Positions 9,450 through 61,083 of a stretch of 64,000 nt of DNA are shown one piece after another. Below the pieces are notes generated by a model. The model was not told where the DNA came from. It was given only the letters and a program-made list of their open reading frames with translations, and did not search any database. The stretch is taken from the NCBI GenBank assembly GCA_903813345.2, contig CAIIXF020000006.1:37289936-37353935 (forward strand), read 5' to 3'. How positions within the stretch are numbered: the first letter of the stretch is position 1; every line of letters begins with the position of its first letter. The position numbers and the translations under genes were made by a program. The stretch comes from Owenia fusiformis (taxonomy: Eukaryota > Annelida > Polychaeta > Sabellida > Oweniidae).

Positions 9450-9476
9450 CTTAAATATTGTATACCAATGTGATTC

Positions 9477-13771: not shown

Positions 13772-13852
13772 CCCTATTGAGAATGTTCTGGAAAACCAGC
13801 TCAGGAGTCTGGTCATTAAATGGGGGTATTCCAGTGAGGAACTCGTACAAAC

Positions 13853-16052
13853 TAGGGGTCACACGGTTAACCGTGGCTTGCGGTTACCGCGGTTCATACC
13901 TCCACGACGGTTACACGCGGTAGTATCTCTTCGGGACGTATCGAAACCACTCCGTCCCGAAAAACCGTTAATTTGAATTTAAAACCTACCCCAGTGTTTG
14001 AAAATCAAGGATTGTGAGTCTCACACTTCACCGTTTTTCTTCAAACTTGTTCCGTACAAAGCTTCACAGAAATACCTTTCAGTCGATACATTGTTTTCGT
14101 GTACAAAGTACCTCGTTTTAGCGGCGTTTTGGTCCCCAGCTGTGAGATAAAGCAAATTTTCATAACTTTCAACTGTAAGTCAAGTTATCTCGTCAGTCTT
14201 TTACCCATTCTCGCCCATAATTTCAGAATGGACTCCCATTACAACCTTCCATCGCTACGTCTTGATTTTTGGGCATCAAACGCAGCAGTTTCTAAATCAT
14301 CCACACATCTCTTCAAATTTGACCAATACGTCCCGTCATCTTCCACTAATAGATAGACTCGGCGGGGCGTAGTGGAAGGTGACGGGACGTATTAGTCAAA
14401 TTTGAAGAGATGTGTGGATGATTTAGAAACTGCTGCGTTTGATGCCCAAAAATCAAGACGTAGCGATGGAAGGTTGTAATGGGAGTCCATTCTGAAATTA
14501 TGGGCGAGAATGGGTAAAAGACTGACGAGATAACTTGACTTACAGTTGAAAGTTATGAAAATTTGCTTTATCTCAGCTGTGAGATAAAGCAAATTTTCAT
14601 AACTTTCAACTGTAAGTCAAGTTATCTCGTCAGTCTTTTACCCATTCTCGCCCATAATTTCAGAATGGACTCCCATTACAACCTTCCATCGCTACGTCTT
14701 GATTTTTGGGCATCAAACGCAGCAGTTTCTAAATCATCCACACATCTCTTCAAATTTGACTAATACGTCCCGTCACCTTCCACTACGCCCCGCCGAGTCT
14801 ATCTATTAGTGGAAGATGACGGGACGTATTGGTCAAATTTGAAGAGATGTGTGGATGATTTAGAAACTGCTGCGTTTGATGCCCAAAAATCAAGACGTAG
14901 CGATGGAAGGTTGTAATGGGAGTCCATTCTGAAATTATGGGCGAGAATGGGTAAAAGACTGACGAGATAACTTGACTTACAGTTGAAAGTTATGAAAATT
15001 TGCTTTATCTCACAGCTGGGGACCAAAACGCCGCTAAAACGAGGTACTTTGTACACGAAAACAATGTATCGACTGAAAGGTATTTCTGTGAAGCTTTGTA
15101 CGGAACAAGTTTGAAGAAAAACGGTGAAGTGTGAGACTCACAATCCTTGATTTTCAAACACTGGGGTAGGTTTTAAATTCAAATTAACGGTTTTTCGGGA
15201 CGGAGTGGTTTCGATACGTCCCGAAGAGATACTACCGCGTGGGTTAGCTCGCACACAATCTTGAAAACCGCGGTTCTTGAAGAACCGTGACATTTTCAAT
15301 TTCACTTCAGAAAAATAAAAATGTAAACTCGGAATTAAACTCCATTTCAAGCTTTCGTGTAATACCAATTAACTAAACATCGTCTCGAATCGTTAATCAT
15401 CATGCAATAATGCGCACCATACCTGATATTTACGACGATCTTCTGATATAGACGGCAGATAACAAAAACAAAAGGAAAATGTTGATAAATTTCACCGGCA
15501 TATTGACCCGGAAGTGACCTACGCTAAACATTTCGCGCAATCCTATTGGTTGATAGAACAGTATACTGTAAAAAGCCGAACGCCGAATGCATTGAATTTG
15601 CGAACGAGTCACGTTCTGTGTATTACGTTCGCCTTTGATCCATGTTGAGTCCTGACAAAGTGTTGAACTTAAGTTATATTTCTAAAGAAAACATTTATTC
15701 AGTTTAGTGAAGTACTGTGCTAATTTTGCCAACAGTTGACAAGTTATTTTATGTGTTGAAAAAACTTGAACATCAAACAAGAAGATCAACACAGTGAACA
15801 CACAGATATTTTGGGAGGGAGGGAGGGAAAAAAGACTGAACAAACAAACAAACATTGTGTGAAACTGGATACTTACAATACTGAATACAATAAAACACTG
15901 TGACACACTTAGTATGTTTTCTGATTTTCGGATCAATTTCATATATTTTTGCTCATTTCACGAGGCCCGTGAGAACCGCAATCAGAACCGAACCGAACTG
16001 TGAAATACAATAACCGAACCGAACCGTGAAATCTCAAACCGTGTGACCCCTA
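13853..16052. mobile_element. Non-autonomous hAT-like transposon, 2200 bp
   Basis: Terminal inverted repeats TAGGGGTCACACGGTT (13853 on) and AACCGTGTGACCCCTA (to 16052), flanked by an exact 8-bp target duplication gtacaaac (13845-13852 and 16053-16060). The 8-bp duplication and this terminus style are hallmarks of hAT elements. The uninterrupted target is visible at 59590-59703, where one gtacaaac is present. No transposase is recognisable; most of the interior is a giant palindrome. Confidence 0.9.
13919..15239. repeat. Giant nested palindrome inside the hAT element
   Basis: Two arms of about 660 bp each, centred near 14578, are reverse complements and look essentially identical. Each arm holds a second inverted repeat of about 215 bp, with turning points near 14356 and 14795. 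One module thus occurs four times in alternating orientation (about 14140-14355, 14365-14575, 14578-14790, 14800-15015). Identical 85-codon ORFs appear at 14099-14356 (+) and 14799-15056 (-), and identical 66-codon ORFs at 14392-14592 (-) and 14563-14763 (+), which reflects the mirror symmetry. I do not recognise the peptide. Confidence 0.92.
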
Positions 16053-16093
16053 GTACAAACACACACCAAGAGACCACCAATCCACTTCAGGAC

Positions 16094-16447
16094 CTGCAAG
16101 TAAATAGAGTGCCCTCTATTTACACATTTATGGAACATTTGAGCGAAAATAGTATATGCTGACATTGAAGCAAGCAGGTGCACTAAATTGAGATTTTAGC
16201 TTACACCAAACTGAAAACCCCATTATCACCCACTTGAAAATGATTAAAAATCATGAGTAACTGCCATATTTTGCAAATTTGGGGGTCAAACTTGAAAAAA
16301 TAGGAATTTTGCAACCACTTGAAGAAACAAGGCATAAACCTGCAAATGTCATCACCTGAATTTGCTACAGATGTTGAATGTTGAACACCAAATGCTGAAC
16401 ACCATCCCCCAAAAAAGTTGGAAGATATAGAGATTATCCTATATGAG
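16094..16447. other. Duplicated intron flank upstream of the broken MASTL exon
   Basis: Aligns with 59704-60050 next to the intact exon, including 'ttgcaaatttgggggtcaaa' in both. Homology ends near 16440, which marks one edge of the segmental duplication. Confidence 0.75.
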
Positions 16448-26614: not shown

Positions 26615-26664
26615 TTAGTTCCAGTCAAATCCAGACATCTGCACATGTTGAAGAGAGTTACGAG
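26615..26664 (-). CDS. Greatwall kinase, last coding exon
   Basis: Acceptor 'tcattttcag' precedes the exon. The split codon from the previous exon gives Ala, then RNSLQHVQMSGFDWN and a TAA stop (26615-26617). This matches the extreme C-terminus of animal Greatwall (ARN-x2-QH ... SGF), and the Ser of SGF corresponds to the C-tail phosphoserine (Ser875 in human MASTL). Phase 1 matches the upstream exon. It is only 50 bp, too short to be found as an ORF. Confidence 0.9.
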
Positions 26665-26908: not shown

Positions 26909-27019
26909 CATCAAAATATGCAGTGTCCGTCTCATCATCAGGCTCAGGAATGAAAGGCATAGTGAGGTCCTGTAGATTCTCCCAATCTGTAGTTTCAAAC
27001 AGTTCATGCACTCTCAGGT
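26909..27019 (-). CDS. MASTL: Greatwall kinase, AGC C-tail exon
   Basis: A 111-bp exon between acceptor 'tgtattccag' and donor GTATAG. With one base from the previous exon it encodes [17 protein letters not shown], then [17 protein letters not shown]: the end of the kinase domain and the AGC-type C-terminal tail of Greatwall, very close to the vertebrate protein in this part. It enters and leaves in phase 1, fitting 32545-32646 upstream and 26615-26664 downstream. Greatwall is the mitotic kinase that phosphorylates ENSA/ARPP19 to inhibit PP2A-B55. Confidence 0.95.
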
Positions 27020-27251
27020 CTGGAATACACAATGTATATACAACTGTAATTGCTGAGCTGAGCTAATAATTCAGCGTGGTCCAAAAAAATGGGACAATCG
27101 AATTTCAAAAATAAATATTGGTTGTCTTGAGGAAAACATGTCATATTATATACCAGTGGATAGGGAATTTACGTATCTTTAATTTGGTATATCATGAGTT
27201 CAAAACAGGTTTTCCAAAACTTGCAAAAACCAAGTTTTTTGTCAACTTGAT

Positions 27252-27440
27252 TTACATAAACAGACGCTCAATATGACCACCATTCTGATCAATTATAGCC
27301 CTCAATTTTGGCCTAAACTGGTCAAATGCATTACTGACATGCTGTTGAGACAGTGTATTCGACTTCTCAATAATTCTGTCCTTAAGGGACTGAGTAGATG
27401 TAAGGGGTTCATAGTAAAGCAATTCTGTTAGTTCTCCAAA
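27252..27440 (-). pseudogene. Mariner-type transposase fragment (C-terminus), minus strand
   Basis: On the minus strand it reads YEPLTSTQSLKDRIIEK, then FDQFRPKLRAIIDQNGGHIE, ending LFM-stop. The NGGHIE-type ending is typical of Tc1/mariner transposases. Catalytic residues are absent. Confidence 0.75.
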
Positions 27441-27530
27441 TACCCGGTAGTCGCAGATGTTGACATCGGATGATCCAATTATGTTGTTTTTGGACCATCC
27501 TGATATGAGCTATTTTCGAATCATTACATT

Positions 27531-29248
27531 TTCCAACAAGATGGGGTTCCAAGCAATGGATCTCACAAGAGTGTCAAATGTTTTAAGGAAAATATGCCTA
27601 GATTCATCCCCCTTAATCACTGCCTCGCCCAGATCACCCGATTACCCAACGTCTGCGACTACCATGTATGGGGAGGACTGACAGAATTGGTATACCATAA
27701 ATCCTTAAGATCTATTCAGTCACTTAAGGACAGGATTATTGAGAAGTGAAATTTATTGTCTCAACAGCATATCAATCATGCTATTGACCAATTTAGGCCA
27801 AAATTGAGGGCACCAATTGATCACAAGAACACAAATGTGTACAATATGTCCCCACCCATGGGTGATCCTGAAAATGAGTAGACAAGACTTCACTGTTACA
27901 ATTTTGGGACGGGAAATGCAGAATGGCCACCTTAAAATTTACCCAGAATGCCAAAAAATTAGTCAGCTGTAGATTTTCATACTAAGAACCATCCCTGAAA
28001 ATTTGATATTGATCCGCTCAAACAGTAAACCAGAAAACATGTAAACAAGACTTTACAGACAAGATTTTAGGACGGAAAAATCCAAAATGGCTGCCTTGAC
28101 ATTTGCCCAGAATGCCTAAAAACTAATCAGTTCTAGATTTTTATACTAAGAATCATCCCTGAAAATTTGAAATTGATCTACCAAACTGTTCACCTGAAAA
28201 CGCATAGACAATACTTTACAGACAAGATTTTAGGACGGAAAATCCAAAATGGCTGCCCTGACATTTATCCAGAATGCCAAAAAACTAATCAGTTCTAGAT
28301 CCCTGAAAATTTGAAATTGATCTACCAAACGGTTCACCTGAAAACACATAGACAAGACTTTACAGGCAAGATTTTAGGACGTAAAATCCAAAATGGCTGC
28401 CTTGACATTTACCCAGAATGCCAAAAAACTAATCAGATCTAGATTTTCATACTAAGTATCATCCCTAAAAATTTGAAATTGATCTACCAAACAGTTCACC
28501 TGAAAACGCGTAGACAAGACTTTACAGACAAGATTTTAGGACGGGAAATCCAAAATGGCTGCCTTGACATTTACCCAGAATGCCAAAAAACAAATCAGAT
28601 CTAGATTTTCATACTTAAAATGGTTCACCTGAAAACGTGTAGACAAGACTTTACAGACAAGATTTTAGGATGGAAAAATCCAAAATGGCCGACAATAAAA
28701 AAGTGATTATTAGTTTTCGCTGATTTCTTTTTACAAAATTATCACATATAACTACTGTTTACAATAACATAGGCTTTTACAGCAAAGTACACCTGAAATT
28801 ATTTATAAAGCTACTAAATAGTTAAAGTATGAAAACTCAAAAACACCGTTCAATATGATACAAAGTATTATCGCGCGCTTACTTTTCTTAAGACATTCAA
28901 AATGGCTGACATGACTGGGCAAACAGGTCCAAAACCTAATCAGATGTAGAATGAAGTAAGCTGAACAAGATGTTAAAGTTTTAAAAGCAACTGTGAAGCC
29001 GTTTTTCTTAAAGTTTGCAGACAAGGATTTTAGCATTTGACTTCAAAATGGCTGACAGGAAGTCCACATCTGTATGCACTCATTAGTTATCCCTGAAAAT
29101 TTGAAGGTGATATCTGTAGCGGTTTTGGAAAAAACTGCCAGACGTACGGACAGACAGACAGACCGACGCGCCTAGGACGACAATATGGCCCCACACTATG
29201 TGGTGGGGACATAAAAATGGCAGATATATTGAACATCTCTTTATGTAA
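27531..29248 (+). pseudogene. Mariner-type transposase fragment, plus strand, split by an insertion
   Basis: Begins in the DDE core (FQQDGVPSNGSHKSVK, with the second catalytic Asp) and continues through LPNVCDYHVWG to the C-terminal PKLRAPID. It is then interrupted at about 27824 by a 1.39-kb repeat and resumes at about 29214 with NGRYIEHLFM-stop. A stop codon also lies within the left part. Non-functional. Confidence 0.75.
27824..29213. mobile_element. 1.39-kb dispersed repeat with GTCCCCACC/GGTGGGGAC ends, copy 1
   Basis: Begins 'caagaacacaaatgtgtaca' and ends 'tatgtggtggggacat'. A second copy is at 61186-62683. The left two thirds consist of tandem units of about 145-170 bp, each with 'ccaaaatggctgcc' and 'caagactttacagacaag'; the right end carries a 'gacagacagac' run. 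Its insertion in the mariner fragment is recognisable because the transposase reading resumes on the other side. No protein is encoded. Confidence 0.75.
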
Positions 29249-29482
29249 GTTTTGAAACGAAAATGACGTCATTTATATTATGGACGCTGGTTGACAGAAA
29301 TTATCATGAATTTGAACTTATGTTATACCAAATTAAAGATGAGTAAATTCCCTATTCACTGGTATATAATATGACGTGTTTTCATCAAGAAAATCAATAT
29401 CTATTTTCGAAATATGAGTGTCCCATTTTTTTGGACCACCCTGTACATCAATTTCTTATAACTTAACAACACTAAAACAACA

Positions 29483-32400
29483 ACTTAGCTTCAGGTCTGA
29501 GATTAGGGTCAAACATAAGGAGTTGTTCTATAACTTGTTGTGCAGGAGGATAGAGAGCTTCATCATCTTACTTACCTTTAGCTTTAGGCCTGAGATTGGG
29601 GTCAAACATGAGGAGTTGTTCTATAACTTGTTGTGCAGGAGGATAAAGAGCTTCATCATCTTACTTACCTTTAGCTTTATGTCTGAGATTAGGGTCAAAC
29701 ATGAGGAGTTGTTCTATAACTTGTTGTGCAGGAGGATAAAGAGCTTCATCATCTTACTTACCTTTAGCTTTATGTCTGAGATTAGGGTCAAACATGAGGA
29801 GTTGTTCTATAACTTGTGCAGGAGGATAAACAGCTTCATCATCTTACTTACCTTTAGCTTTAGGTCTGAGATTAGGGTCAAACATAAGGAGTTGTTCTAT
29901 AACTTGTTGTGCAGGAGGATAGAGAGCTTCATCATCTTACTAACCTTTAGCTTTAGGCCTGAGATTAGGGTCAAACATAAGGAGTTGTTCTATAACTTGT
30001 TGTGCAGGAGGATAAACAGCTTCATCATCTTACTTACCTTTAGCTTTAGGTCTGAGATTAGGGTCAAACATAAGGAGTTGTTCTATAACTTGTTGTGCAG
30101 GAGGATAAAGAGCTTCATCATCTTACTTACCTTTAGCTTTAGGTCTGAGATTAGGGTCAAACATAAGGAGTTGTTCTATAACTTGTTGTGCAGGAGGATA
30201 AAGAGCTTCATCATCTCACTTACCTTTAGCTTTAGGTCTGAGATTAGGGTCAAACATGAGGAGTTGTTCTATAACTTGTTGTGCAGGAGGATAAAGAGCT
30301 TCATCATCTTACTTACCTTTAGCTTTAGGTCTGAGATTGGGGTCAAACATGAGGAGTTGTTCTATAACTTGTTGTGCAGGAGGATAGAGAGCTTCATCAT
30401 CTTACTTACCTTTAGCTTTAGGCCTGAGATTGGGGTCAAACATGAGGAGTTGTTCTATAACTTGTTGTGCAGGAGGATAGAGAGCTTCATGATCTTACTT
30501 ACCTTTAGCTTTAGGTCTGAGATTAGGGTCAAACATGAGGAGTTGTTCTATAAATTGTTGTGCAGGAGGATAGAGAGCTTCATCATCTTACTTACCTTTA
30601 GCTTTAGGCCTGAGATTGGGGTCAAACATGAGGAGTTGTTCTATAAATTGTTGTGCAGGAGGATAGAGAGCTTCATCATCTTACTTACCTTTAGCTTTAG
30701 GTCTGAGATTAGGGTCAAACATGAGGAGTTGTTCTATAAATTGTTGTGCAGGAGGATAGAGAGCTTCATCATCTTACTTACCTTTAGCTTTAGGTCTGAG
30801 ATTAGGGTCAAACATGAGGAGTTGTTCTATAAATTGTTGTGCAGGAGGATAGAGAGCTTCATCATCTTACTTACCTTTAGCTTTATGTCTGAGATTAGGG
30901 TCAAACATGAGGAGTTGTTCTATAACTTGTTGTGCAGGAGGATAAACAGCTTCATCATCTTACTTACCTTTAGCTTTAGGTCTGAGATTAGGGTCAAACA
31001 TAAGGAGTTGTTCTATAACTTGTTGTGCAGGAGGATAGAGAGCTTCATCATCTTACTTACCTTTAGCTTTAGGCCTGAGATTAGGGTCAAACATAAGGAG
31101 TTGTTCTATAACTTGTTGTGCAGGAGGATAAACAGCTTCATCATCTTACTTACCTTTAGCTTTAGGTCTGAGATTAGGGTCAAACATAAGGAGTTGTTCT
31201 ATAACTTGTTGTGCAGGAGGATAAAGAGCTTCATCATCTTACTTACCTTTAGCTTTAGGTCTGAGATTAGGGTCAAACATAAGGAGTTGTTCTATAACTT
31301 GTTGTGCAGGAGGATAAAGAGCTTCATCATCTTACTTACCTTTAGCTTTAGGTCTGAGATTAGGGTCAAACATGAGGAGTTGTTCTATAAATTGTTGTGC
31401 AGGAGGATAGAGAGCTTCATCATCTTACTTACCTTTAGCTTTAGGTCTGAGATTGGGGTCAAACATGAGGAGTTGTTCTATAACTTGTTGTGCAGGAGGA
31501 TAGAGAGCTTCATCATCTTTCTTACCTTTAGCTTTAGGTCTGAGATTGGGGTCAAACATGAGGAGTTGTTCTATAACTTGTTGTGCAGGAGGATAAAGAG
31601 CTTCATCATCTTACTTACCTTTAGCTTTAGGCCTGAGATTGGGGTCAAACATGAGGAGTTGTTCTATAACTTGTTGTGCAGGAGGATAAAGAGCTTCATC
31701 ATCTTACTTACCTTTAGCTTTAGGCCTGAGATTGGGGTCAAACATGAGGAGTTGTTCTATAACTTGTTGTGCAGGAGGATAAAGAGCTTCATCATCTTAC
31801 TTACCTTTAGCTTTAGGTCTGAGATTGGGGTCAAACATGAGGAGTTGTTCTATAACTTGTTGTGCAGGAGGATAAAGAGCTTCATCATCTTACTTACCTT
31901 TAGCTTTAGGCCTGATATTGGGGTCAAACATAAGGAGTTGTTCTGTAACTTGTTGTGCAGGAGGATAAACAGCTTCATCATCTTACTTACCTTTAGCTTT
32001 AGGCCTGAGATTGGGGTCAAACATGAGGAGTTGTTCTATAACTTGTTGTGCAGGAGGATAAAGAGCTTCATCATCTTACTTGTACCTTTAGCTTTAGGTC
32101 TGAGATTGGGGTCAAACATGAGGAGTTGTTCTATAACTTGTTGTGCAGGAGGATAAAGAGCTTCATCATCTTACTTACCTTTAGCTTTAGGTCTGACATT
32201 GGGGTCAAACATGAGGAGTTGTTCTATAACTTGTTGTGCAGGAGGATAAAGAGCTTCGTCATCTTACTTACCTTTAGCTTTAGGCCTGAGATTAGGGTCA
32301 AACATGAGGAGTTGTTCTATAACTTGTTGTGCAGGAGGATAGAGAGCTTCATCATCTTACTTACCTTTAGCTTTAGGCCTGAGATTAGGGTCAAACATGA

Positions 32401-32544
32401 GGAGTTGTTCTATAACTTGTTGTGCAGGAGGATAAAGAGCTTCATCATCTTTCTTACCTTTAGGTCTGAGATTAGGGTCAAACATGAGGAGTTGTTCTGT
32501 AACTTGTTGTGCAGGAGGATAGAGAGCTTCATAATCTTTCTTAC
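29483..32544 (-). repeat. Exon-derived 93-bp tandem array carrying splice donors
   Basis: About 33 tandem copies of a 93-bp unit. On the minus strand each unit is the last 84 bases of the MASTL exon at 32545-32646 (encoding the DDEALYPPAQQVIEQLL and MFDPNLRPKAK segments) followed by the first 9 intron bases GTAAGTAAG. The array is joined directly to the genuine exon and lies in the following intron. Units are highly similar. Exceptions seen: one unit is 87 bp (lacks 6 bp near 32462), one lacks 3 bp (near 29815), and one has 2 extra bases at its donor (near 32080). In the two junctions nearest the exon the donor context is GTAAGAAAG, which removes the in-frame TAA present in nearly all other units. 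Confidence 0.95.
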
Positions 32545-32646
32545 CTTTAGCTTTAGGTCTGAGATTAGGGTCAAACATGAGGAGTTGTTCTATAACTTGT
32601 TGTGCAGGAGGATAAACAGCTTCATCATCTTCTGGCCATGCTATAT
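32545..32646 (-). CDS. MASTL: Greatwall kinase, C-lobe exon and parent of the 93-bp array
   Basis: A 102-bp exon with acceptor 'aattttgttctag' and donor GTAAGAAAG. With one base from the exon at 59590 it reads DIAWPEDDEAVYPPAQQ, then VIEQLLMFDPNLRPKAK, matching the kinase subdomain X-XI region of Greatwall (human DIPWPEGEE). It starts and ends in phase 1, which fits both neighbours. Its 3' 84 bases plus the donor are the source of the downstream array. Donors at 32457 and 32364, in the first two repeat units, are equally in phase and would lengthen the exon by 87 or 180 bp without a stop; donors beyond these include TAA. Confidence 0.95.
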
Positions 32647-32701
32647 CTAGAACAAAATTTGAAACAAATGACATATTCATGCTTAATAGCTTAAACAATC
32701 A

Positions 32702-32823
32702 CAGGGTGAGCCAAAAAAGATAGCACAATCAATTATGTTAATAATTAACTCAGTCATTTAGCACGGATTTATTTTAAAGTGATACTGAACTATTTGTTTA
32801 GGTTAGTTTTTTTGTTCACCCTG
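32702..32823. mobile_element. 122-bp mariner-like MITE
   Basis: Ends CAGGGTGAGCCAAAAAAG and TTTTTTTGTTCACCCTG are inverted repeats; TA follows on the right. It lies 55 bp upstream of the MASTL exon acceptor, in the intron. Confidence 0.65.
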
Positions 32824-34795: not shown

Positions 34796-35170
34796 ATGGT
34801 ATTTGAATCATAGAAATTACATATATTTTCTAAATAAAATGGTGGCCATTTTATATTGAGTGGCTATATTGGAACTTCTTTCCTGAGCAAAGGTCCTATG
34901 GCCTTACAGCATTAGTCCATACTAAATCCATTCACTGGAATTTAACAACCATTCATTGCAACTACCATTTGACCTGCATAATAGCACTTAAAGCATGATA
35001 CTAGTTACAAATGTTTACTAAACAAAGAAAATAAGCTTATTGGTTTCATTAGTTTCAAAATGACCCCTTGTGTGAGTTGTTGGTTATATAATACAATGCA
35101 GTCATATGAAATACTATCCTCTGATTGATAGAAGTTGACACACCTTGCCTAGCTATGTGTGAATAGTTTA
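34796..35170. other. 3' flank of UGT-B
   Basis: From about 35030 it aligns with the 3' flanks of UGT-A (7715-7868) and UGT-D (46090-46245), including 'gtgtgagttgttggttatat'. No gene. Confidence 0.6.
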
Positions 35171-36399
35171 TTAATCATATTTGACCTTCTGATAAGAGAA
35201 TATGAAGCAAATGACTTTCTTGACTATAATAACCAGAACAGTTCCAATTATAATGCAAACACAACACACTAGTGCTATGATGTCGAGCAAATAGTATTGG
35301 AAGAAATTCAGTTCATTAGCAGCTTGGGATCGTAAATGGGGTGCACCCTTGTGGCGTATTACATATTCAGCCCAGTAGACAAGTTTGTCCTTTGGTGGTA
35401 TGGGTTGATCATGGTATATAGCAGCAGCTCTTTCAGCATTCGCCTTGTATGTTTTATTCTCTATAACCTCCTTCATGGCTCGTTGAAACTTCTTGCTGGT
35501 GATTCCTTCCAAAGAAACAGTTTGACCAGATTTTACTCTATGGGAGAGTTTCTGGCAATAGAAAGGCTGATCCCAAAAGAATGGTACTCCAATCACAGGG
35601 AGGGCATAATGCAAAGCTTGAAAGCTGGATGAAGCTCCACAGTGTGTCACAAATAGTTTAGTAGCAGGTTGATTCAACAGGCTTTCTTGAGGTATCCATT
35701 TACTCAATATCGTATTATTTCCAAGACCTTCTGGTGTGGGGCCTTCGTAACTCCAAATCACAGTTTGTGGCATTGCAGCAAATGCTTTGGCAAATGTGGT
35801 TCGAAGTTCTGGCCAGAGTCTACGGAACATTGAGCCAAAGCTCACAACAATTATCCCATGTTTTCCAGCTTTCTCAATAATTTTGGCATAGTGTCGATCT
35901 AAAGGCTTTGGGTTTTCGAGGAAAAATCCTTCTACAGATATAACATGTGGCATTAAGGGAAGTGGGTAATGAAGTGCATCATTTCTGTTCATAAAGACCA
36001 GAGAGGCAATTTTGTCAGCATTCTCTATGTAATCACAGGCATCTCCATAATCCAGTTCTTTACATATCTCAAAAGATTTACTGAACAATTTCCTGTTCAC
36101 ATTTTGAAGTTTAAAATAGTCCCAAACATTGAAGACTCTTTCTGAGAAAGACAAAATGTCCGAGTATGGTTCAACATAAGCAGAAACATATGCAAGATTA
36201 AATCTTTGTACAAGATTTGCATCAAAACTCATTGGTCCCCAGTTTTCATAAAGAATCAATGGAATATTGAAAGTTGCAGCTATAATCCTTGACACCATCA
36301 TAAGCTCATCGCTTATTATCAAGTCAAACTTTGCACTCGCAATCTTTTTCCAAACAGTTTTGTCTTTCAGAGGATGGGAAATTAAATCAAAATATATAG

Positions 36400-37243
36400 T
36401 GTTACAGTAGTGAGCTACATGCATATTATATTCTACTATATTCACCTATAGTTTAATTTGTAATGTATGTTTGCTGTATATGTTGAGCTATTCTTTATTG
36501 GAGATCTTGGGTCAAGGTCACAATGACATTATACACTGTATCTTGTAAACAAAACTGAACTGAATGACTCATTAACCCTTGACCATCCAGATAGTTCTAG
36601 AAATTATAACCATTCATTAAAATTTAATCATGTCACTAAAGATGTCCAATCAAAACTCAACAAGTAGTCTTAGTTCTAGAAGATTCTTTCTAGATGATTC
36701 TTTCACACTATAAATAAAACTGCAAAGTGGACTCAGTAGCAGATAATTAAGTAATCATAACTGGACATCTCAAAGGAACTAAATAAAGCAGAATTTCAAA
36801 GTTGATCAAAAGACATCTTCTTAGCAGAAAATAACAGACACATACTGTGGGAACATTTATAACACTACAAACATACAACCTGAGGACTTTATATGGACAT
36901 ATATTATAACACACTCTATATACGGATTATCATCAAACATTTGTGGATTATCATCAAACATTATTGGATACGAACATTATAGGATTACAACAAACATTAT
37001 TGGATTATTACAAACATTGGAGAGCTATTAACGATTATTGAATCATTTCGTGATCTGGAACATTCTCAAGGATCATCAACGACATTTATCGACATCAAGA
37101 ATAAGCCGTATCATTGATTGGACATCACTTAAGTATTAAACCTCCTTTATATTATTGTTATATTATTTAGTTTTCAAAATATAAATATATTGTTATCATA
37201 TTTTAATTGCTGTTTTTACTTTCTGTTATTTTCGAACGTAACA
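36400..37243 (+). repeat. 5' LTR (844 bp)
   Basis: Starts TGTTACAGTAGTGAGC and ends TTCGAACGTAACA. Same length and, as far as I can read, the same sequence as 41012-41855. It contains a probable TATA box and two short direct repeats with 'ggattatcatcaaacat'. Confidence 0.95.
36708..36719 (+). promoter_or_regulatory. Probable TATA box of the 5' LTR
   Basis: CTATAAATAAAA, about 310 bp into the LTR and upstream of the R/U5 part; the same element occurs in the 3' LTR near 41320. Confidence 0.5.
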
Positions 37244-37248
37244 GAAAT

Positions 37249-37266
37249 TGGGGGCTTGTCCGGGAT
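37249..37266 (+). other. Primer-binding site, tRNA-Pro type
   Basis: TGGGGGCTTGTCCGGGAT, five bases after the 5' LTR. It differs at one position from the well-known 18-base tRNA-Pro primer-binding site of gammaretroviruses, so tRNA-Pro is the likely primer for minus-strand synthesis. Confidence 0.85.
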
Positions 37267-37340
37267 TCAACTACAACAAGCTAAAATTCAAATATTTCAA
37301 AATTCGAAAATTATATTGTGAAGACAGCAATTAACTGAAA

Positions 37341-40340
37341 ATGAGTTTTGAGGTTGAGACATTCTTAGAAGCGCCCTCTTTGGAGGAATTTGATGATTTA
37401 AAGAAAACTGAACTTCTGGCAATTGCGAAACATGTTGGCCTGTCAGTCAAAAGCTCATACAATAAAGGTACAATTAAAAACTTTGTACTTCAATATTTGG
37501 TCGCAGAATCACTTCTGCCTGAGGAGCCAGCCCAGCATGTCGAGCATACTGATCCTACTAGGCTTAAAGAACTTGAATTGAGAGAGAAAGAGTTAGAAAT
37601 TCAAAAAGAAAGAGAAATTAGGGAATTGAGAGAAAAAGAGTTGCAAAATGAAAAAGAATTGAGAGTGAAAGAGTTAGAAATTCAAAAAGAAAGAGAAATT
37701 AGAGAATTGAGAGAAAAAGAGTTAGAAATGCAAAATGAAAGAGAAAAAAGAGAAAATGAAAGACAAATGAGAGAACAAGAAATTCAGAGAGAAATTGAAT
37801 TAAAACGTCTTGAGATAGAAGCTCAATCCAAATCTGAGGAACATGCTACTATGCATCAACATTTTGAAAATAGGTTTGACGCTTCAAAATTTCTCAAATT
37901 TGTACCTAAATTTCAAGAGAAAAATGTTGATAAATACTTTACACATTTTGAAAAGGTTGCTCAGAGCCTAGACTGGCCTAAATCTGCATGGCCAGTTATG
38001 CTCCAGAGTGTATTCATTGGCAAAGCAAGTGAAATATTTGCCTCTCTCTCAGCAGAAGCATGCTCTGATTATGACCTAATTAAAAATGCAATTCTTAAAG
38101 CTTATGAACTAGTGCCAGAAGCTTACAGACAAAAATTTAGAAATGCCCACAAGCAGAGTGACCAAACCCATGTTGAGTTTGCTCGAGAGCAAGAGCAGCT
38201 TTTTGACAGGTGGCTTGTCTCTAAAGATGTATCTGAAGAGTTTAAAAAGCTCAGAGAGCTTATGCTAATAGAACAATTTAAAAACTGTGTTCAGTATCAC
38301 ATTAGAACTTACTTAGATGAACACAAGGTAGAAACTTTAAGTCAAGCTGCCACCCTGTCTGATGATTATGCTCTTACTCATAAGGGTAGTTTTATCAAGG
38401 GCAATCCTAACTTTAGAGGTTATCAAGGTAACAAACCTTCATATGATACAAAATCAAACCAGTCCTCATCATCAAATACATCAAACAAAGCAAAAGACCA
38501 GTCTAATTCATCACAGAGTTCTAGCTCAAAATCAGATCAATCAAAATCGTCAGGTCCAACATCAAATGTCACCTGTAACTATTGTAAAAAGCCTGGTCAT
38601 CTTATTTCTGAATGCTATAGGATTAAGAATAGAAGAGAGATGTCTGGTTCTGCTCATTCAAATGGTTGTGCTACAGTTCCCATTTCAAGAAAGCCCATTG
38701 TTTGGGATTCATATACTCATACTGAGAAATCCACTCATGGTGATATTATGGAGGATTATAAGCCTTTCATGTCCGAAGGATCTGTGTCACTGTCAAGTGA
38801 TGGTACCAATTCAAAGCCAATTAAGATTCTTAGAGACACGGGTGCATCTCAGACTTTGTTGTTAGAAGGCGTCCTTCCTTTATCTGAGGAGTCATTCACA
38901 GGTACCCATATTTTGATGCAAGGCATTGAATTAGGATTTACTAAAGTTCCCCTCCATCGTATTCATATCACGTCTGAGTTAGTCAAAGGGCCAGTTATTG
39001 TTGGTGTTAGGCCACAACTTCCTGTTGAAGGAGTCGCATTGCTTTTAGGCAATGATTTAGCTGGGGGTAAGGTATCATTAGACCCCATTGTTTCTGATCA
39101 GCCTTGTTCTATTGAGGATTCTGTCCAAGAGGACTCTGATATATATCCTGCTTGTGCTGTTACTAGGGCTATGGCTAAAAAGTTAGCTAATAGCGGGGAT
39201 TCGTCTGTGGGAGATGACTTTGATAGTGGGTTTTTAAGCTCCTTGTTTGATGATGAATGTCACTCACCACTTGTTAAAGATGATCCTTATCCTATTTTAA
39301 AGGCACATTCTTCATTGAAACAGCCTTCTGTTCAAGCCAAGCAGTCATCTATTGAGGCAAATTCTTCATTGAAAAAGCCTATTGCCAGAGGTGATTCACC
39401 TTCTGAGCAGGATCACTATTTTAATGCGGTTTCGCCCGCTCTTGCTAGTCCTGATGAAGTTTCATCTTCTTCTGCTAGTGTTCATGAGGTTTCATCCCCT
39501 CCTTGTTCTGAGGTTTCATCCTCTTCGAGTTCTGAGGTTTCATCCTCTATTTCTGATAGTGATTCTTTGAAAAATGATCCTCATTCTAAACACATGTTAA
39601 TTTATGAACAAGAGCATGATCCATCACTCATTGATCTTCATAAAAGATGTCTTACTATTGATGAAGCTGACAAGGTCCCTGTTTGTATCTACAAAAAGGA
39701 TGGCATATTAATGCGAAAGTGGAGACCTCCTGAAGCTTCCCCAGAAGACGATTGGGCAATTGTACATCAAATTGTTGTCCCAAAATCATATCATAAGGAA
39801 ATCTTGAGTCTAGCTCATGATTCTCCCATGGCAGGTCATTTAGGAGTAACTAAAACATACCATAAAATACTCAATCATTTCTATTGGCCCAAATTAAAAC
39901 AAGATGTCCAAGAGTATTGTAGGTCTTGTCATACATGTCAAATGGTAGGGAAACCTAACCAGAAAATTCCAATTGCTCCTTTACACCCTATACCTGCATT
40001 TGATGAGCCATTTAGTAAGGTTCTTATTGATTGTGTTGGTCCATTACCAAAAACAAAATCTAATAATCAATATCTGCTCACTATTCTGTCTATGGCCACA
40101 CAGTTTCTAGAAATAAAATCACTCCTTATGCTTAGAAATAGCAAAACCAAGTATATTGTGAAATCACAAATCAACAATTTCACATTAGTTGGGCTACCAA
40201 AGGAGCTCATATCTGACTTACAATCTAACTCAGTGCTGAATGATTTCATTTGCATTGATAAAACTACCCCTGTGAGGTGTAGAGAGCTACACATGATGAA
40301 AAAGTATGTTGAGCGTGATAAATTTCTTTACTCAACATGA
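37341..40340 (+). CDS. Gag-protease-partial integrase polyprotein, RT absent
   Basis: An open frame of 999 codons. Order: an N-terminal segment (1-70), a long E/K/R-rich coiled coil (about 75-175), a Gag capsid-like region (180-350), a Ser/Asn-rich linker, zinc knuckle CX2CX4HX4C (about 412-425), protease DTGAS (about 499), a Ser-rich spacer with EVSSSSSSEVSSS repeats (about 700-750), the integrase HHCC finger (about 826-866), and the start of the integrase core with D in LIDCVGPLP (about 895). The core degenerates around SDLQSNSV (about 957), the third catalytic residue is missing, and the protein ends soon after MMKKYVERDK, a stretch that in the 161-4480 element lies between IN and RT. So the end of IN plus all of RT and RNase H are deleted, while the order PR-IN is Gmr1-like. 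Confidence 0.9.
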   Translation: MSFEVETFLEAPSLEEFDDLKKTELLAIAKHVGLSVKSSYNKGTIKNFVLQYLVAESLLPEEPAQHVEHTDPTRLKELELREKELEIQKEREIRELREKELQNEKELRVKELEIQKEREIRELREKELEMQNEREKRENERQMREQEIQREIELKRLEIEAQSKSEEHATMHQHFENRFDASKFLKFVPKFQEKNVDKYFTHFEKVAQSLDWPKSAWPVMLQSVFIGKASEIFASLSAEACSDYDLIKNAILKAYELVPEAYRQKFRNAHKQSDQTHVEFAREQEQLFDRWLVSKDVSEEFKKLRELMLIEQFKNCVQYHIRTYLDEHKVETLSQAATLSDDYALTHKGSFIKGNPNFRGYQGNKPSYDTKSNQSSSSNTSNKAKDQSNSSQSSSSKSDQSKSSGPTSNVTCNYCKKPGHLISECYRIKNRREMSGSAHSNGCATVPISRKPIVWDSYTHTEKSTHGDIMEDYKPFMSEGSVSLSSDGTNSKPIKILRDTGASQTLLLEGVLPLSEESFTGTHILMQGIELGFTKVPLHRIHITSELVKGPVIVGVRPQLPVEGVALLLGNDLAGGKVSLDPIVSDQPCSIEDSVQEDSDIYPACAVTRAMAKKLANSGDSSVGDDFDSGFLSSLFDDECHSPLVKDDPYPILKAHSSLKQPSVQAKQSSIEANSSLKKPIARGDSPSEQDHYFNAVSPALASPDEVSSSSASVHEVSSPPCSEVSSSSSSEVSSSISDSDSLKNDPHSKHMLIYEQEHDPSLIDLHKRCLTIDEADKVPVCIYKKDGILMRKWRPPEASPEDDWAIVHQIVVPKSYHKEILSLAHDSPMAGHLGVTKTYHKILNHFYWPKLKQDVQEYCRSCHTCQMVGKPNQKIPIAPLHPIPAFDEPFSKVLIDCVGPLPKTKSNNQYLLTILSMATQFLEIKSLLMLRNSKTKYIVKSQINNFTLVGLPKELISDLQSNSVLNDFICIDKTTPVRCRELHMMKKYVERDKFLYST

Positions 40341-41011
40341 GCTTGTGCTCTTAGCTCATAGGCCAAACTTGTATGTCAATGACAACTATACATGTATGTT
40401 ATTCAAGAGTCAGATATTGTAAATTATAATGATTAACTCATGAAGATTATATTATATGGTAGGCAAATTAGAGATTTGTGATAACTGTCACTTTATTTTA
40501 ACAATGTATAAAAACATTTGCCTAAATAGTGAAATTGATATTATATGAACTACAAGAATGTTTCTAGATTATGTGAGCATTATAGGTAATCTTTAAATAG
40601 TGTCACAAGATTACTTGATAACATCAGAGTGTACTATTAGAAATACTTACATAAGATCATGTGATAATTTAAAACATTGTACTAGTTTAGTGTTTGTCAG
40701 ACTCAAAAATGTATGCTATTGTACATGTTATATGATCTATTGCGTGTATTGTATTTATGACTTAATGGATAACTTATGTAGATACTATTGTAGTATATGA
40801 TTACAAGAACATTATATGTTATTAGATTGTACTCACACTGTAACGATAGAAAGTATAAAATACTTGTAAACATACTGCACATAAAAAGACTATTGTAAAC
40901 AAATATTATGTAAGTCTCAACCTCACTTTTAGAAATTGTAACGCTCGCTACTCAAGATATTATTGTAAAAGTTTTTCATTGCATTCAAAACTTTTCTTTT
41001 AAGGAGGGAGG
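40341..41011 (+). other. 3' non-coding region of LTR element with polypurine tract
   Basis: No ORF of interest. Ends in the purine tract aaggagggagg (41001-41011) immediately before the 3' LTR. Confidence 0.8.
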
Positions 41012-41855
41012 TGTTACAGTAGTGAGCTACATGCATATTATATTCTACTATATTCACCTATAGTTTAATTTGTAATGTATGTTTGCTGTATATGTTGAGC
41101 TATTCTTTATTGGAGATCTTGGGTCAAGGTCACAATGACATTATACACTGTATCTTGTAAACAAAACTGAACTGAATGACTCATTAACCCTTGACCATCC
41201 AGATAGTTCTAGAAATTATAACCATTCATTAAAATTTAATCATGTCACTAAAGATGTCCAATCAAAACTCAACAAGTAGTCTTAGTTCTAGAAGATTCTT
41301 TCTAGATGATTCTTTCACACTATAAATAAAACTGCAAAGTGGACTCAGTAGCAGATAATTAAGTAATCATAACTGGACATCTCAAAGGAACTAAATAAAG
41401 CAGAATTTCAAAGTTGATCAAAAGACATCTTCTTAGCAGAAAATAACAGACACATACTGTGGGAACATTTATAACACTACAAACATACAACCTGAGGACT
41501 TTATATGGACATATATTATAACACACTCTATATACGGATTATCATCAAACATTTGTGGATTATCATCAAACATTATTGGATACGAACATTATAGGATTAC
41601 AACAAACATTATTGGATTATTACAAACATTGGAGAGCTATTAACGATTATTGAATCATTTCGTGATCTGGAACATTCTCAAGGATCATCAACGACATTTA
41701 TCGACATCAAGAATAAGCCGTATCATTGATTGGACATCACTTAAGTATTAAACCTCCTTTATATTATTGTTATATTATTTAGTTTTCAAAATATAAATAT
41801 ATTGTTATCATATTTTAATTGCTGTTTTTACTTTCTGTTATTTTCGAACGTAACA
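41012..41855 (+). repeat. 3' LTR (844 bp)
   Basis: Same length as the 5' LTR and no difference noticed in a side-by-side reading, implying a very recent insertion. Followed by the second target copy atag. Confidence 0.95.
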
Positions 41856-42211
41856 ATAGGTAGTACAGTGTCAAAGGCATCCACAGCATCCCCTATTAAG
41901 CTGACAATATGATCCTGATTCAAAGTATTTATGTCCTTGGATGGATCAACAGGTGGCTTCTTGAAATGTAAGACATTAAATGTTTTGTTCATATTATTTG
42001 TCTCACCTAATTTAAACAAAGCATCATGTTCAATCTGATCAGAGAGCAAGAGGCTTACTTCATGTCCAGCATTCATCATAATTCGTCCAATATTTATTGT
42101 ATTCCTCATTCTGCTATTATAGCCGAAATCCACTGGTACAACGAGAATATTTCCACATTCACAAAGAGATGAACACAAAATGACTGATAACAAAAGTCCT
42201 GTGAAATCCAT

Positions 42212-43734
42212 CTTTTAATACTGTATATCACTGTAATTCTTAACATATAACTCACTAGTTCAACACATTATTTTTGATTCACTTGTGCTTGACATTGGTA
42301 TATGAACAAATAACACATATACCCTCTGGTCAAAAAATTATGTGCATCATCATCTACTATTTACAACTTTTAAAAAATGATTTTTATATTAATTTTAATA
42401 GACTAAGCAGCAAGGATTTACAACTGTCTCTTCAATTCATAATAAAATCTTCAATTGCAATTGCAAAAATAATACCATTTATAATATACATGTATATGAT
42501 ATTTACTTTAGAAATTCCTGCTGATGCACAATTCTTTGGACCAGAGGGTATGCTGATCTTTGCTACCAATAGAGTATATAGCAGTTGTAACAACTAGAGA
42601 GCAATGACTTGTTTATCACACTTGAAGAATAAAGCCCCAAAATACATTATTTATGAGGTGTTAGGTCACATTGACATAACATATGTATCTCATACAGAAC
42701 TCACAAATAAAGTGTATACTAAAGACTAAATACAGGGTATCCAAGTCAGGGCATCTGTTATTTGCCAAGACCTGTTTTATTCATATCATTACCAGCTTGC
42801 CTAATATTGCATATTATCCCATGGTTAGAAGGATATAGATCGAATATCACGTGAAGATAAATTTGATATATGGATCAGGATATCATTTTTCAGCAAAAAA
42901 TCCCCAAACCATTGAATATCACTTTTGAAACCATCAAATATCACTTTGAAACCATTCAAACCTTTTAAAAGGTGATATAAGGGTGTCAAAAGTGATATCC
43001 GATGGTTACGATTTTTTTTAAATTAATTTTTGATTTCTATAAAAAACAAAAAACCTTTAAAAACTTACCTTTTTTAGATACGATGAATGGCAAACGCTAA
43101 TTGTAAACCATATATGTTGTATGTCATAAGAAAAACAAACACTATATGTTCCAAACCCACGATCTCACGTGAAAAGAAACAATGTCCAAATACCCTTTCC
43201 TCCATCATTCAAGAACCAATATCACAATCCAAGACCAGAACACCAACGTATAGGTATAAAAAAGGGACATTTCAATCATACTGAAGTCATTACAATACAT
43301 GTTGAAGAAAAATTAGAAATTGATAGCCAATACTCATGTATGTATGTATATATTTATTGTCCTTTACAAAAAAGGTGATTTATTCATGCAATTATAAAAA
43401 GATTAATATGTACAAACAATCTAACAAACAAGCACCAAACAAATTCTAATCCATATAAATTGCCGACTTCAAGCCACTGCGTTGCCGTTTGGACAAAATA
43501 TATCAGATTAAACAGTTGTGTATGAATATGAAGAATACACCTTCCCCAAGGTTGGTATATTCAGAATAAATACTTAAAAAGTCCAGTGAGTTTCAAATGT
43601 TATAGAGGGTACCTTCCCCAAGGCTGGTACATCCATTTGTGATCATTTACGTATAACATACACATATAAAGTATGAGCATAAGTCAATAAAAAGTACCAT
43701 CAAATGACAATAATATATCATAATGTCATTGATT
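42212..43734. other. Upstream flank of UGT-B and intron spacer
   Basis: 42230-42720 is related to the upstream flanks of UGT-A and UGT-D ('accagagggtatgctgatct' against related words at 10170 and 48400). A small hairpin-like patch with 'atatcacttttgaaacc' and 'aaaagtgatatccgat' lies at about 42910-43000. Isolated 'accttccccaaggttggt' words occur at 43540 and 43610. No gene. Confidence 0.5.
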
Positions 43735-44683
43735 TAGGGTGTAGGGTTGGGGTATTTCTATATCCTGCATTTCTGAATCTGTAGTTGAACCACCATCAGG
43801 GTTTCATATTTCTACAATATTATACAACTACATCAAATTTGAGTATCCTTAAAGTCCGCATTAAAAAACGTTGTACCTAAGAAATAATATACAGGTACAA
43901 CGTTTTTAATGCCGCTTTAAGGATACTCAAATTTGATGTAGTTGTATAATATCGTAGAAATATGAAACCCCTGAGCTTGGTATATGCAGAGAAATACTTT
44001 AGAAACCAGAGAATTAAATCAGCTTTATAAAGGGTACCTTCCCCAAGGTTGGTTCGGTTAGAAGTGGAAAAAATGGTTACACATTACACATTAAACTCTG
44101 AACCTTCCCCAAAGTTGGTACTGTACATCCAGAATAGAAAGATATTAATCATAATTTCAGTAATATAGGATAGTCCCCTGGGGGCCCATGTACCTCCCTG
44201 AGGGCCACCCTCCACCACTGAATGAAGTTACATTTAAGTGTGTAACATCAAAAATAGAACTGTAGATACAAGTATTCATACAAACAGAGCATAATCACTC
44301 TCAAATGACGTGGTAAAGACAAAATCCAGCCACGGAGTTCATGGGAATTTCAAAGGGCCAACAACCATTCCCCAAGCCGTGGCCATAATCCATAAAACAC
44401 AATAATTCACAATGGTCATCAAGAAACTATGGGTGGTTTCAATATATATTTCTCAACAATCAATACTGTAGCTGGAACCTCAAAAGGTGTGTAGTGAAAA
44501 AATATGAGTTAAGTGCCAATTTCTTAAACAATTCCAACATCATTCAACATCTCAAGTGATAAAACCTGAAACTTCAAAAGCTAATTGGCATATAAAAGTC
44601 ATTACTCATGGTTCAGTCTATCCTGCAAAAGGAGATTTGTGCCTCAAAACCATCAATTTTAATGTCTAGTAAATATTACTTTA
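43735..44683. repeat. Duplicated 3' flank of UGT (block 2) with a new inverted duplication
   Basis: Counterpart of 6670-7546. Unlike that copy, a stretch of about 75 bp with 'actacatcaaatttgagtat' is present twice in opposite orientation (about 43803-43875 and 43900-43975), forming a hairpin. The third copy of the 260-bp repeat lies at about 44036-44292. Confidence 0.75.
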
Positions 44684-46037
44684 TTAATCATATTTGTCCT
44701 TCTGGTAAGAGACTATGAAAAGAATGACTTTCTTGGTTATAATTACCAGAACTGTTCCAATGATAATGCAAACACAACACACCAGTGCTATGATGTCGAG
44801 CAAATAGTGTTGGAAGAAATTCAGTTCATTAGCAGCTTGGGATCGTAAATGGGGTGCACCCTTGTGGTGTATTACATATTCAGCCCAGTAGACAAGTTTG
44901 TCCTTTGGTGGTATGGGTTGATCATGGTATATAGCAGCAGCTCTGTCAGCATTCGCCTTGTATGTTTTATTCTCTATAACCTCCTTCATGGCTCGTTGAA
45001 GTTTCTTGCTGGTGATTCCTTCCAAAGAAACAGTTTGACCAGATTTTACTCTATGGGAGAGTTTGTGGCAATAGAAAGGCTGATCCCAAAAGAATGGTAC
45101 TCCAATCACAGGGAGGGCGTAATGCAAAGCTTGAAAGCTGGATGAAGCTCCACACTGTGTCACAAATAGTTTAGTAGCAGGGTGATTCAATAGGCTTTCT
45201 TGAGGTATCCAATTACTCACAATCGTATTATTTCCAAGACCTTCAGGTGTGGGGCCTTCATAACTCCAGATCACAGTTTGTGGCAAAGCAGCAAATGCTT
45301 TGGCAAATATAGTACGAAGTTCTGGCCAGAGTCTACGGAACAATGACCCAAAGCTCGCAACAATTATCCCATGTTTTCCAGCTTTCTCAATAATGTTGGC
45401 ATAGTGTTGATCTAAAGGCTTTGGGTTTTCTAGGAAAAATCCTTCTACAGATATAACATGTGGCATTAAGGGAAGTGGGTAATGAAGTGCATCATTTCTG
45501 TTCATAAAGACCAGAGAGGCAGTTTTGTCAGCATTCTCTATGTAATCACAGGCATCTCCATAATCCAGTTCTTTACATATCTCAACAGATTTACTGAACA
45601 ATTTCCTGTTCACATTTTGAAGTTTAAAATAGTCCCAAACATTGTAGACTCTTTCTGAAAAAGACATTATGTCGGAGTATTGTTCAACGTAAGCAGGAAC
45701 ATATGCAAGATTGAATCTTTGTACAAGATTTGCATACCTCAAAACTCATTGGTCCCCAGTTTTCATAAAGAATCAAAGGAATATTGAAAGTTGCGGCTAT
45801 AATCCTTGACACAATCATCAGCTCATCGCTTATTATCAAGTCAAACTTTGCACTCGCAATCTTTTTCCAAACAGTTTTGTCTTTCAGAGGATGGGAAATT
45901 AAATCAAAATGTGCAGGTAGTACAGTGTCAAAGGCATCCAAAGCATCCCCTATTAAGCTGACAACATAATCCTGATTCGAAGTATTAATGTCATTGGATT
46001 GATCAACAGGTGGCTTCTTGAAATGTATGACATTAAA
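44684..46037 (-). pseudogene. UDP-glycosyltransferase UGT-C, truncated and frameshifted
   Basis: Encodes most of a UGT on the minus strand. Codons for the first ~85 residues including the signal peptide are missing: homology stops at 46037, where sequence from a UGT C-terminal tail is joined (46038-46075). A 4-bp insertion near 45735, relative to UGT-B, breaks the frame between the part with FDLIISDEL (45684-45941 frame) and the part from NLVQRFNLAY to the stop (44684-45742 frame). The donor signature is FVTQCGASSSFQAL, and the tail ends KDKYD. It resembles UGT-B in the N-terminal half and shares the TQCG variant with A and D. Confidence 0.9.
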
Positions 46038-46245
46038 TTATAGAGCAAATAGTATTGGAAGAAATTCAGTTCAGATTTTTACAAAACTAAGTTTATAAGC
46101 TTATCAGTTTCATTAGTTTCACTTGGATCTAAAATGACCCGTTGTGTGAGTTGTTGGTTATATAATGCAATGCAGTTATATGAAATATTGTCCTCTAATT
46201 GTCTAGAATCGGACACACCTTGCCTAGCTATGTGCAAATACTTTA

Positions 46246-47826: not shown

Positions 47827-47853
47827 CTTAAATATTGTATACAAATGTGATTC

Positions 47854-49687: not shown

Positions 49688-50235
49688 TATATGAACCGTG
49701 TAAAATAACCCTGTTTTTAGTTAACATAACTTATTGGTCATGATCTGACCTATTTTTTTAATTCAGTGCTCGTATGATTTTACTTCATTTAGTTGTTGAA
49801 TTAAGGATTTAATCCCTGGACTCATTCTTTGATTCCATTGAAGGTGTCATTCCTTTGAATTTTCCTATCTTTGTGTGACTGCACATTGGGAATGCAAAGT
49901 TTAGAAAACAACGCATGAGTGGTGATGCCTTGGACAACTGCTCAAAGATTAAAACGTAGTCAGATGTGACATCATAAGCATATGGTAATATTTAATTTTT
50001 TTGAATTGAGTGTCCATATTGGATTTTTTGAGCAGAAATTCTATTCCCTCAGTCAGCGTATAATATTTAGACCAAATTTGATCAAAAATTACATGCATAT
50101 TATGTCCCAAAAGAGAACCAAATCTGATAATCTTTACGAACTGAGCAGCCATATTAGATTCCTTTTGAGTATAATTCCTATGCCCATCAAGTGCGGATAG
50201 ACAAACAGTTTAATCAAACACACTGTTTGTTGGGA
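49688..50235. other. Non-coding flank, duplicated in block 1
   Basis: Aligns with about 10440-10640 and 10915-11200. No gene. Confidence 0.55.
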
Positions 50236-59589: not shown

Positions 59590-59703
59590 CCCTATTGAGA
59601 ATGTTCTGGAAAACCAGCTCAGGGGTCTGGTCATTAAATGGGGGTATTCCAGTGAGGAACTCGTACAAACACACGCCAAGAGACCACCAATCTACTTCAG
59701 GAC
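59590..59703 (-). CDS. MASTL: Greatwall kinase, C-lobe exon (subdomain IX)
   Basis: A 114-bp exon between acceptor 'ttacttgcag' and donor GTAAATA. With the G from the previous exon it encodes [16 protein letters not shown], then [20 protein letters not shown] and NRG, matching kinase subdomain IX of Greatwall ([19 protein letters not shown]). The conserved Asp of DWW stabilises the catalytic loop in protein kinases. Entry and exit are both in phase 1, fitting 60921-61083 and 32545-32646. A second, broken copy is at 13772-16093. The following intron is about 27 kb and contains the UGT cluster. Confidence 0.95.
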
Positions 59704-60920: not shown

Positions 60921-61083
60921 CATGGTCTTTTTGTAGCAGTAGCTCCGGAGCCAAATAATCTGGAGTACCCAGAATCCTCTTGTCATCTTCTTTCTCAGGA
61001 GCAGGACCACGACGTACACTTTTTGGCGTTCTAAATGGGGTGTTGGCGGCATTTAACCCAGCAGGAGTCCTGGCAGCTGGTGT
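60921..61083 (-). CDS. MASTL: Greatwall kinase, exon joining the linker to kinase subdomain VIII
   Basis: Encodes TPAARTPAG ... TPFRTPKSVRRG, then KRILGTPDYLAPELLL and QKDHG, ending in phase 1 at a GTAAATA donor. TPFRTPKSVRRG is the end of the long Greatwall-specific insertion, with the CDK-type TPK site; GTPDYLAPE is the activation-loop/APE motif. In Greatwall these are adjacent because the insertion splits the kinase domain between subdomains VII and VIII. I place the 5' end at 61083 after acceptor 'tatctccccag' (phase 0). The frame stays open upstream to about 61150 (NPYVSPQ), so the exon could be longer. The N-lobe exons are outside the window. Confidence 0.88.

Follow-up and report, generated by a model that had tools for sequence, protein, structure and literature searches.

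A 64,000-nucleotide stretch of the genome of the annelid Owenia fusiformis (contig CAIIXF020000006.1 of assembly GCA_903813345.2, positions 37,289,936 to 37,353,935; referred to as the window, in whose numbering all coordinates are given) carries on its minus strand an exon of the mitotic kinase gene MASTL/Greatwall, exon C, that runs directly into 33 further tandem copies of most of itself. The array spans about 3.1 kb and presents 33 5′ splice sites (donors) in a row. It is most probably a homogenising minisatellite of the boundary-spanning 'mirage' type, spliced out mainly from its first donor with some leakage.

Five MASTL exons were found in the window, all on the minus strand: exon A (60921-61083, TPAARTPAGLN...ELLLQKDHG), exon B (59590-59703), the 102-nt exon C (32545-32646), exon D (26909-27019), which every donor of the array would join, and the last coding exon, exon E (26616-26664), which closes with ...SGFDWN and the stop codon. 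The joined exons code for 179 residues with a Pkinase domain match (PF00069). Against solved structures this product gave Greatwall (8v5h, E = 2.1e-61; 5loh, 8.7e-61) well before the next kinase, CBK1 (4.9e-24). PDB entry 8v5h is human MASTL, on which the identification of the gene is based, and its alignment with the product is gap-free across the junction of exons C and D. These matches indicate that the array-bearing exon belongs to MASTL/Greatwall and codes for part of the kinase C-lobe. Exon C encodes DIAWPEDDEAVYPPAQQVIEQLLMFDPNLRPKAK, a segment that we take to lie around helices alpha-H and alpha-I. A deposited O. fusiformis protein (unnamed, partial, 867 residues) equals the product obtained by leaving exon C at its own end, donor 1, over all 179 residues (179/179, 100% identity). 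MASTL/Greatwall proteins have an N-lobe, and their kinase domain is split by a long middle region. With the deposited protein as guide, itself marked partial, no exon coding for the N-lobe was found in the window; that protein has a long stretch upstream of the part encoded by exon A.

Tandem repeats were called with Tandem Repeats Finder over the 64-kb window, and the copies were then split by script. The program reported one array at 29485-32631 (period 93, 33.9 copies, 96% matches, score 5695), which on the minus strand resolves into 34 copies, copy 1 being the end of exon C itself. Together with the match to human MASTL, this bears out the proposal of the initial annotation that a MASTL exon and its donor have been amplified within their own intron; the array of about 33 copies described there is real, and its exact count is 34 copies including the exon, with 33 donors. 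The unit had been read as 84 exon bases plus GTAAGTAAG, which are the same letters cut elsewhere: exon homology extends over 87 nt (32631-32545), and the unit therefore consists of 87 exon nucleotides followed by the first six intron bases, GTAAGT. Copy 1 comprises the last 87 nt of exon C and GTAAGA, while most later copies carry GTAAGT. Thirty of the 33 copies that have a successor are 93 nt long, the others being copy 2 (87 nt), copy 6 (95 nt) and copy 31 (90 nt). Copy 34 (29485-29567) is the shortened far end of the array and has no donor. Its outer edge (...GCTAAGTTGTTG) is what a loss of six bases between two TAA words would leave of ...GCTAAAGGTAAGTTGTTG (also written as a loss of 6 nt from ...GCTAAAGGTAAGTTG). 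Such a loss would make GTAAGT the old start of the intron, a suggestion drawn from about a dozen bases. The unit was found at the array only when searched for in the window. On the plus strand, an open frame of 912 codons (29418-32156) passes through the array; we attribute it to a period that is a multiple of three and to one frame free of stops and gave it no weight, no search for a homologue or domain having been made.

The GT dinucleotide is intact at 33/33 junctions (GT at 32544, 32457, 32364 and so on to 29575), and GTAAG at 31/33, the exceptions being copy 6 (GTACAAG) and copy 29 (GTTAG). The window contains 29 exact AAGGTAAGT words on the minus strand, 28 of which lie inside the array; similarly, about three AGGTAAG words per strand would be expected in the whole window from base composition, and the array alone holds 31. 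Donors 1 (GTAAGA, 32539-32544), 2 (GTAAGA, 32452-32457) and 3 (GTAAGT, 32359-32364) add 0, 87 and 180 nt, respectively, that is 0, 29 or 60 residues, and keep both the frame and the C-terminal tail; the open frame and the added residues are as first annotated. The remaining 30 donors, 4 to 33 (29570-32271, GT from 32271 to 29575), two of which have damaged hexamers (copies 6 and 29), share another fate: every transcript leaving from any of them would terminate at a single TAA (32359-32357) at the junction after donor 3. A TAA had already been noted in nearly all distal choices; the stop stands and 'nearly' does not, as all 30 of the 33 hit the same one. The T of this TAA is intron base +6, and its other two letters are supplied by the exon copy that follows. 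The junction codon is instead AAA, with A at base +6, at junctions 1, 2 and 12, and TGA at junction 26, while the 2-nt insertion at junction 6 shifts the frame. A stop codon upstream of exon junctions usually leads to decay of the message. Since the TAA after donor 3 lies upstream of both the C/D and the D/E junctions, decay is expected for transcripts from donors 4 to 33.

Variant counts and distances between copies disregard the 2-nt insertion of copy 6 and use copy 34 trimmed to 81 nt; gaps did not contribute to the distances. The 34 copies comprise 22 distinct aligned sequences with a mean divergence of 3.6%. Neighbouring copies diverge by 2.8%, a value as low as which was reached in none of 5000 shuffles of copy order, and the distance between copies rises weakly with their separation (r = 0.14, P = 0.02). 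In addition, a block of five units recurs, copies 15-19 reappearing as copies 27-31 with one substitution and one 3-nt loss. This is the pattern left by unequal exchange and block duplication, and it points to concerted evolution within the array. Edge and inner copies are mixed in their divergence, with no clear effect of the edges: copy 8 is the most diverged, followed by copies 2, 29, 5 and 34, and copy 1 ranks tenth. Variation in the six intron columns amounts to two substitution variants and one 2-nt insertion, against fifteen substitution variants with two losses in the 87 exon columns; the donors are no better conserved than the exon sequence.

Patterned differences between copies speak against an assembler having stacked one unit, and they bear on the explanation that the array is an assembly error, being shorter in the animal or having its copies multiplied by the assembler. 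That such errors can arise at arrays of this kind is documented in amphioxus, where a draft version was aberrantly assembled (PMC3087553; the articles on published systems are cited here from partial text). The 22 distinct aligned sequences, the likeness of neighbours beyond chance and a block repeat that itself differs between its two occurrences weigh against an artefact. The published Owenia genome, as far as the available text of its description goes, was assembled from PacBio reads with an N50 of 25.75-30.75 kb together with optical maps and linked reads; the PacBio reads are several times the length of the array, which counts against an error as well if the window belongs to that assembly. 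The worry is thus a weak one, and we consider an error very unlikely.

Donor strength was expressed as a simple U1 duplex energy. Donors 1, 2 and 12 reach −9.5 kcal/mol and 27 others, donor 3 among them, −12.2 kcal/mol, with donors 26 (−11.4), 29 (−8.3) and 6 (−5.6 kcal/mol) lying outside these two groups. The other MASTL donors pair less strongly (exon A, −5.3; exon B, −6.5; exon D, −6.1 kcal/mol), making those of exon C the strongest by this measure among the four donor-bearing exons in the window. Such an array might be a functional decoy, in which strong donors hold U1 or divert splicing towards donors 4-33; the number of copies would then determine how much of the message decays and, through this, the Greatwall dose. 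The 28 exact AAGGTAAGT sites, the 28 of 33 donors that are stronger than donor 1 and a stop placed upstream of two exon junctions would all suit this explanation, as would the human ABCA7 gene, where a donor-spanning repeat alters splicing by its length (PMC5954066, partial text). However, the donor columns vary no less than the exon columns, and the deposited protein is the donor-1 product. Nor does local RNA structure favour donor 1: its mean unpaired share of 0.43 falls within the range of 0.21-0.62 over the 33 donors and is not singled out. Structure was likewise rejected as a device for hiding or showing donors, the fold of two units having a z of 0.84, with 160 of 200 shuffles at least as stable. 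In amphioxus, where the arrangement is alike, the authors' data suggest, in the text available to us, that regular splicing is not interfered with (PMC3087553). The initial annotation had suggested that this could be a decoy-donor array, a source of nonsense-mediated decay or a regulator of Greatwall dose; we find the decoy array and the dose regulator unsupported and consider them unlikely.

Relatives of the donor-1 product were compared at the C/D junction. After the Owenia protein itself, the next three matches are scallop proteins with 65-67% identity. Among short relatives (best 120 of 303), 84 cross the junction, 69 of them gap-free within eight residues and 15 with one to six extra residues; the remaining 36 alignments stop ahead of the junction or close to it, have no further match on its far side and are uninformative. 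Among long relatives (best 120 of 1305, the Owenia protein included), 120/120 cross it gap-free. No insert of 29 or 60 residues at the junction was seen in the 204 junction-crossing proteins listed (203 besides Owenia), and a 113-residue query with the frame running through copies 1-3 returned 18 candidates, none at E ≤ 0.001. These results weigh on the idea that donors 2 and 3 are used regularly and that isoforms with one or two extra exon C segments have a role of their own. Both insertions are in frame, as such coding extension would demand, and AAA instead of a stop stands at junctions 1, 2 and 12 of 33; if three such junctions were placed at random among the 33, A at both of the first two would have P = 0.006, a figure that ignores the shared ancestry of the copies, neighbours not being independent. 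The commoner exon variants are also mostly synonymous (4/6, P = 0.04; frequency-weighted, P = 0.02; again among copies that share ancestry), yet by number of variants, over the 84 columns tested, 5/14 are synonymous against 3.6 expected (P = 0.27). Exchange with copy 1, the functional exon, could account for this bias of the frequent variants; we treat it, like the A at the first two junctions, as a hint and not as a result. Copy 2 does not look preserved: second in divergence among the 34, it has lost 6 nt and carries two amino-acid changes. A regular coding role for the extra segments thus seems to us quite improbable.

We therefore favour a boundary-spanning minisatellite that is removed mainly from donor 1. 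In its origin, one duplication would have joined GTAAGT, the first six bases of the intron, to a point 15 nt inside exon C, creating the 93-bp unit, and unequal exchange or slippage, block duplication included, would then have expanded this unit to 34 copies. In the RNA, the spliceosome would mainly take donor 1, the nearest to the exon C acceptor, and the remaining copies would leave as intron. Leakage to donors 2 and 3 would give in-frame kinases with 29 or 60 additional residues after the exon C segment, while use of donors 4-33 would yield a truncated and probably decayed message. A study of human decoy donors, in the portions available, reports that a decoy is likelier to be used the closer it lies to the true donor, with a strong effect on the exon side and a modest one on the intron side, and that within 150 nt of the true donor decoys as strong as it are seldom found (PMC8964760). 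In the Owenia array, a donor equal to donor 1 follows after 87 nt and stronger ones lie beyond, which makes donors 2 and 3 the obvious sites to examine for leakage.

Several points weigh against this explanation. Donor 1 pairs less well with U1 than 28 of the 33 donors (27 at −12.2 and one at −11.4 kcal/mol), and the exonic sequence upstream is nearly alike at all of them; with near-equal exonic context and stronger donors further on, main use of donor 1 is not predicted by strength alone. The later donors of the array are, moreover, on the intron side, where the effect of distance in human genes is only modest in the portions of the report available (PMC8964760). According to the partial text at hand, the published Owenia gene models combine RNA-seq, curated junctions, prediction and protein hints, with RNA-seq support for 31,678 of 31,903 transcripts. 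The deposited model thus comes from a pipeline mixing short RNA reads, gene prediction and protein hints, and short reads would not reveal junctions 2-33 among copies so nearly identical; this model is therefore no measure of leakage. Finally, the array is known from one haplotype, and length variation between individuals is a trait of the class to which we assign it.

Two further ideas concern the junctions themselves. Donor strength and the stop both hang on intron base +6: T completes the U1 site and is also the first letter of the in-frame TAA, while A (junctions 1, 2 and 12) leaves a weaker donor and an open frame. On a more far-reaching view, a strong donor that is passed over would mark the message for decay, and the first two junctions would have lost their stop if T is ancestral, as the far edge of copy 34 suggests. 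Were this so, the array would be a self-policing donor ladder that only the +0, +29 and +60 isoforms come through, copy number serving as its dial; this view we hold to be very doubtful. We also considered whether new introns might arise within the array. In every unit, two AG sites (CAG after CCAATCT and AAG after ACAAC) are preceded by 18 bases of which 12 are pyrimidines, compared with 11-14 for the five real acceptors. A splice joining a donor to the first AG of the following unit would produce a fragment of about 14 nt and cause a frameshift; this candidate was set aside as a possibility only.

The window holds other repeats as well. A second copy of exon B lies on the minus strand in two parts (13773-13850 and 16053-16094; 100% protein identity over 26 and 14 residues), interrupted by an insertion of about 2.2 kb (13853-16049). 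Within this insertion lies a 1.3-kb inverted repeat that is almost perfect (13914-15241, 99.7%). About 11 bases of exon B are present in both halves, an overlap of the kind that a target-site duplication leaves. Judged by eye, much of the intron that follows the array is taken up by an element whose inverted ends are CAGGGTGGTCC-like (27072-29443), and about 54 bases ahead of exon C there is a short one with the ends ACAGGGTGA / CACCCTGT (32701-32823). A 1.4-1.5-kb repeat, 86% identical between its copies and with an inner periodicity of 162 bp, is present in the intron after the array (27823-29219) and just upstream of exon A (61185-62688). The 27-kb intron between exons B and C contains several UGT-like genes or pieces on the same, minus, strand (35171-47853; named by eye, no family search having been made), and another UGT-like copy lies at 7869-9476. 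A UGT-like gene (about 35003-36397 and 41856-42393) is split by what by eye is a very recent long terminal repeat retrotransposon (36399-41855), in which two 845-bp direct repeats (36399-37243 and 41011-41855, 100% identical) flank a gag-like frame. An unrelated second array, also of 93-bp period, occupies 50220-52093 with about 20 copies upstream of one UGT-like gene, a paralog of which has only a few copies upstream (11171-11426 and 11771-11936); TATA-like words occur in its units, as does AAGTGAGT on the minus strand.

The MASTL array shares three features of the mirage class: it sits on an exon-intron boundary, its copies carry splice signals and they show concerted evolution. No prior report of it was found among the matches listed in the open-licence literature on splice-donor repeats, intron gain, MASTL and Owenia, and one is not excluded. 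Its nearest counterparts are human and amphioxus repeats. The minisatellite of the human IFI6 (6-16) gene reportedly has a unit of about 12 nt in about 26 copies. It contains several donors, and use of two downstream units gives three mRNAs (Turri et al. 1995, as summarised in part in PMC4526556); the Owenia unit, in contrast, is 93 nt long and contains most of a conserved exon. In intron 18 of human ABCA7, a variable number tandem repeat of 25 bp has the exon 18 donor as its first GT, its length affects splicing, and one isoform retains one unit, that is, leaves from the next donor (PMC5954066, partial text). The ABCA7 repeat is intronic and its use shifts the frame, whereas the Owenia repeat includes coding sequence in its copies and stays in frame at donors 2 and 3. 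Boundary tandem repeats also alter splicing, and can yield new introns, in recent human paralogs, where they are variable repeats in segmental duplications; a donor array of the Owenia size is not described in the part of that article available (PMC2812944). The closest likeness is to the amphioxus mirages of Adh3 and the globin genes BflGb6 and BflGb9, tandem repeats over an exon-intron boundary with AG/GT signals in many units and with clusters that are unstable in length (PMC3087553, partial text). BflGb6 has 6 and 3 units of 150-160 bp in two haplotypes at an acceptor boundary, and BflGb9 a duplicate of the 3′ boundary of an exon; the Owenia array has 34 copies at a donor boundary, in a kinase gene. 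It thereby offers a natural experiment on how the spliceosome chooses among 33 nearly identical donors in near-same exonic context in a mitotic kinase, by distance, strength or both. The array is striking in that most of a conserved exon is present in each of its 34 copies, yet its class, though rare, has already been described in amphioxus and human genes, and it suggests that boundary-spanning minisatellites occur in annelids too.
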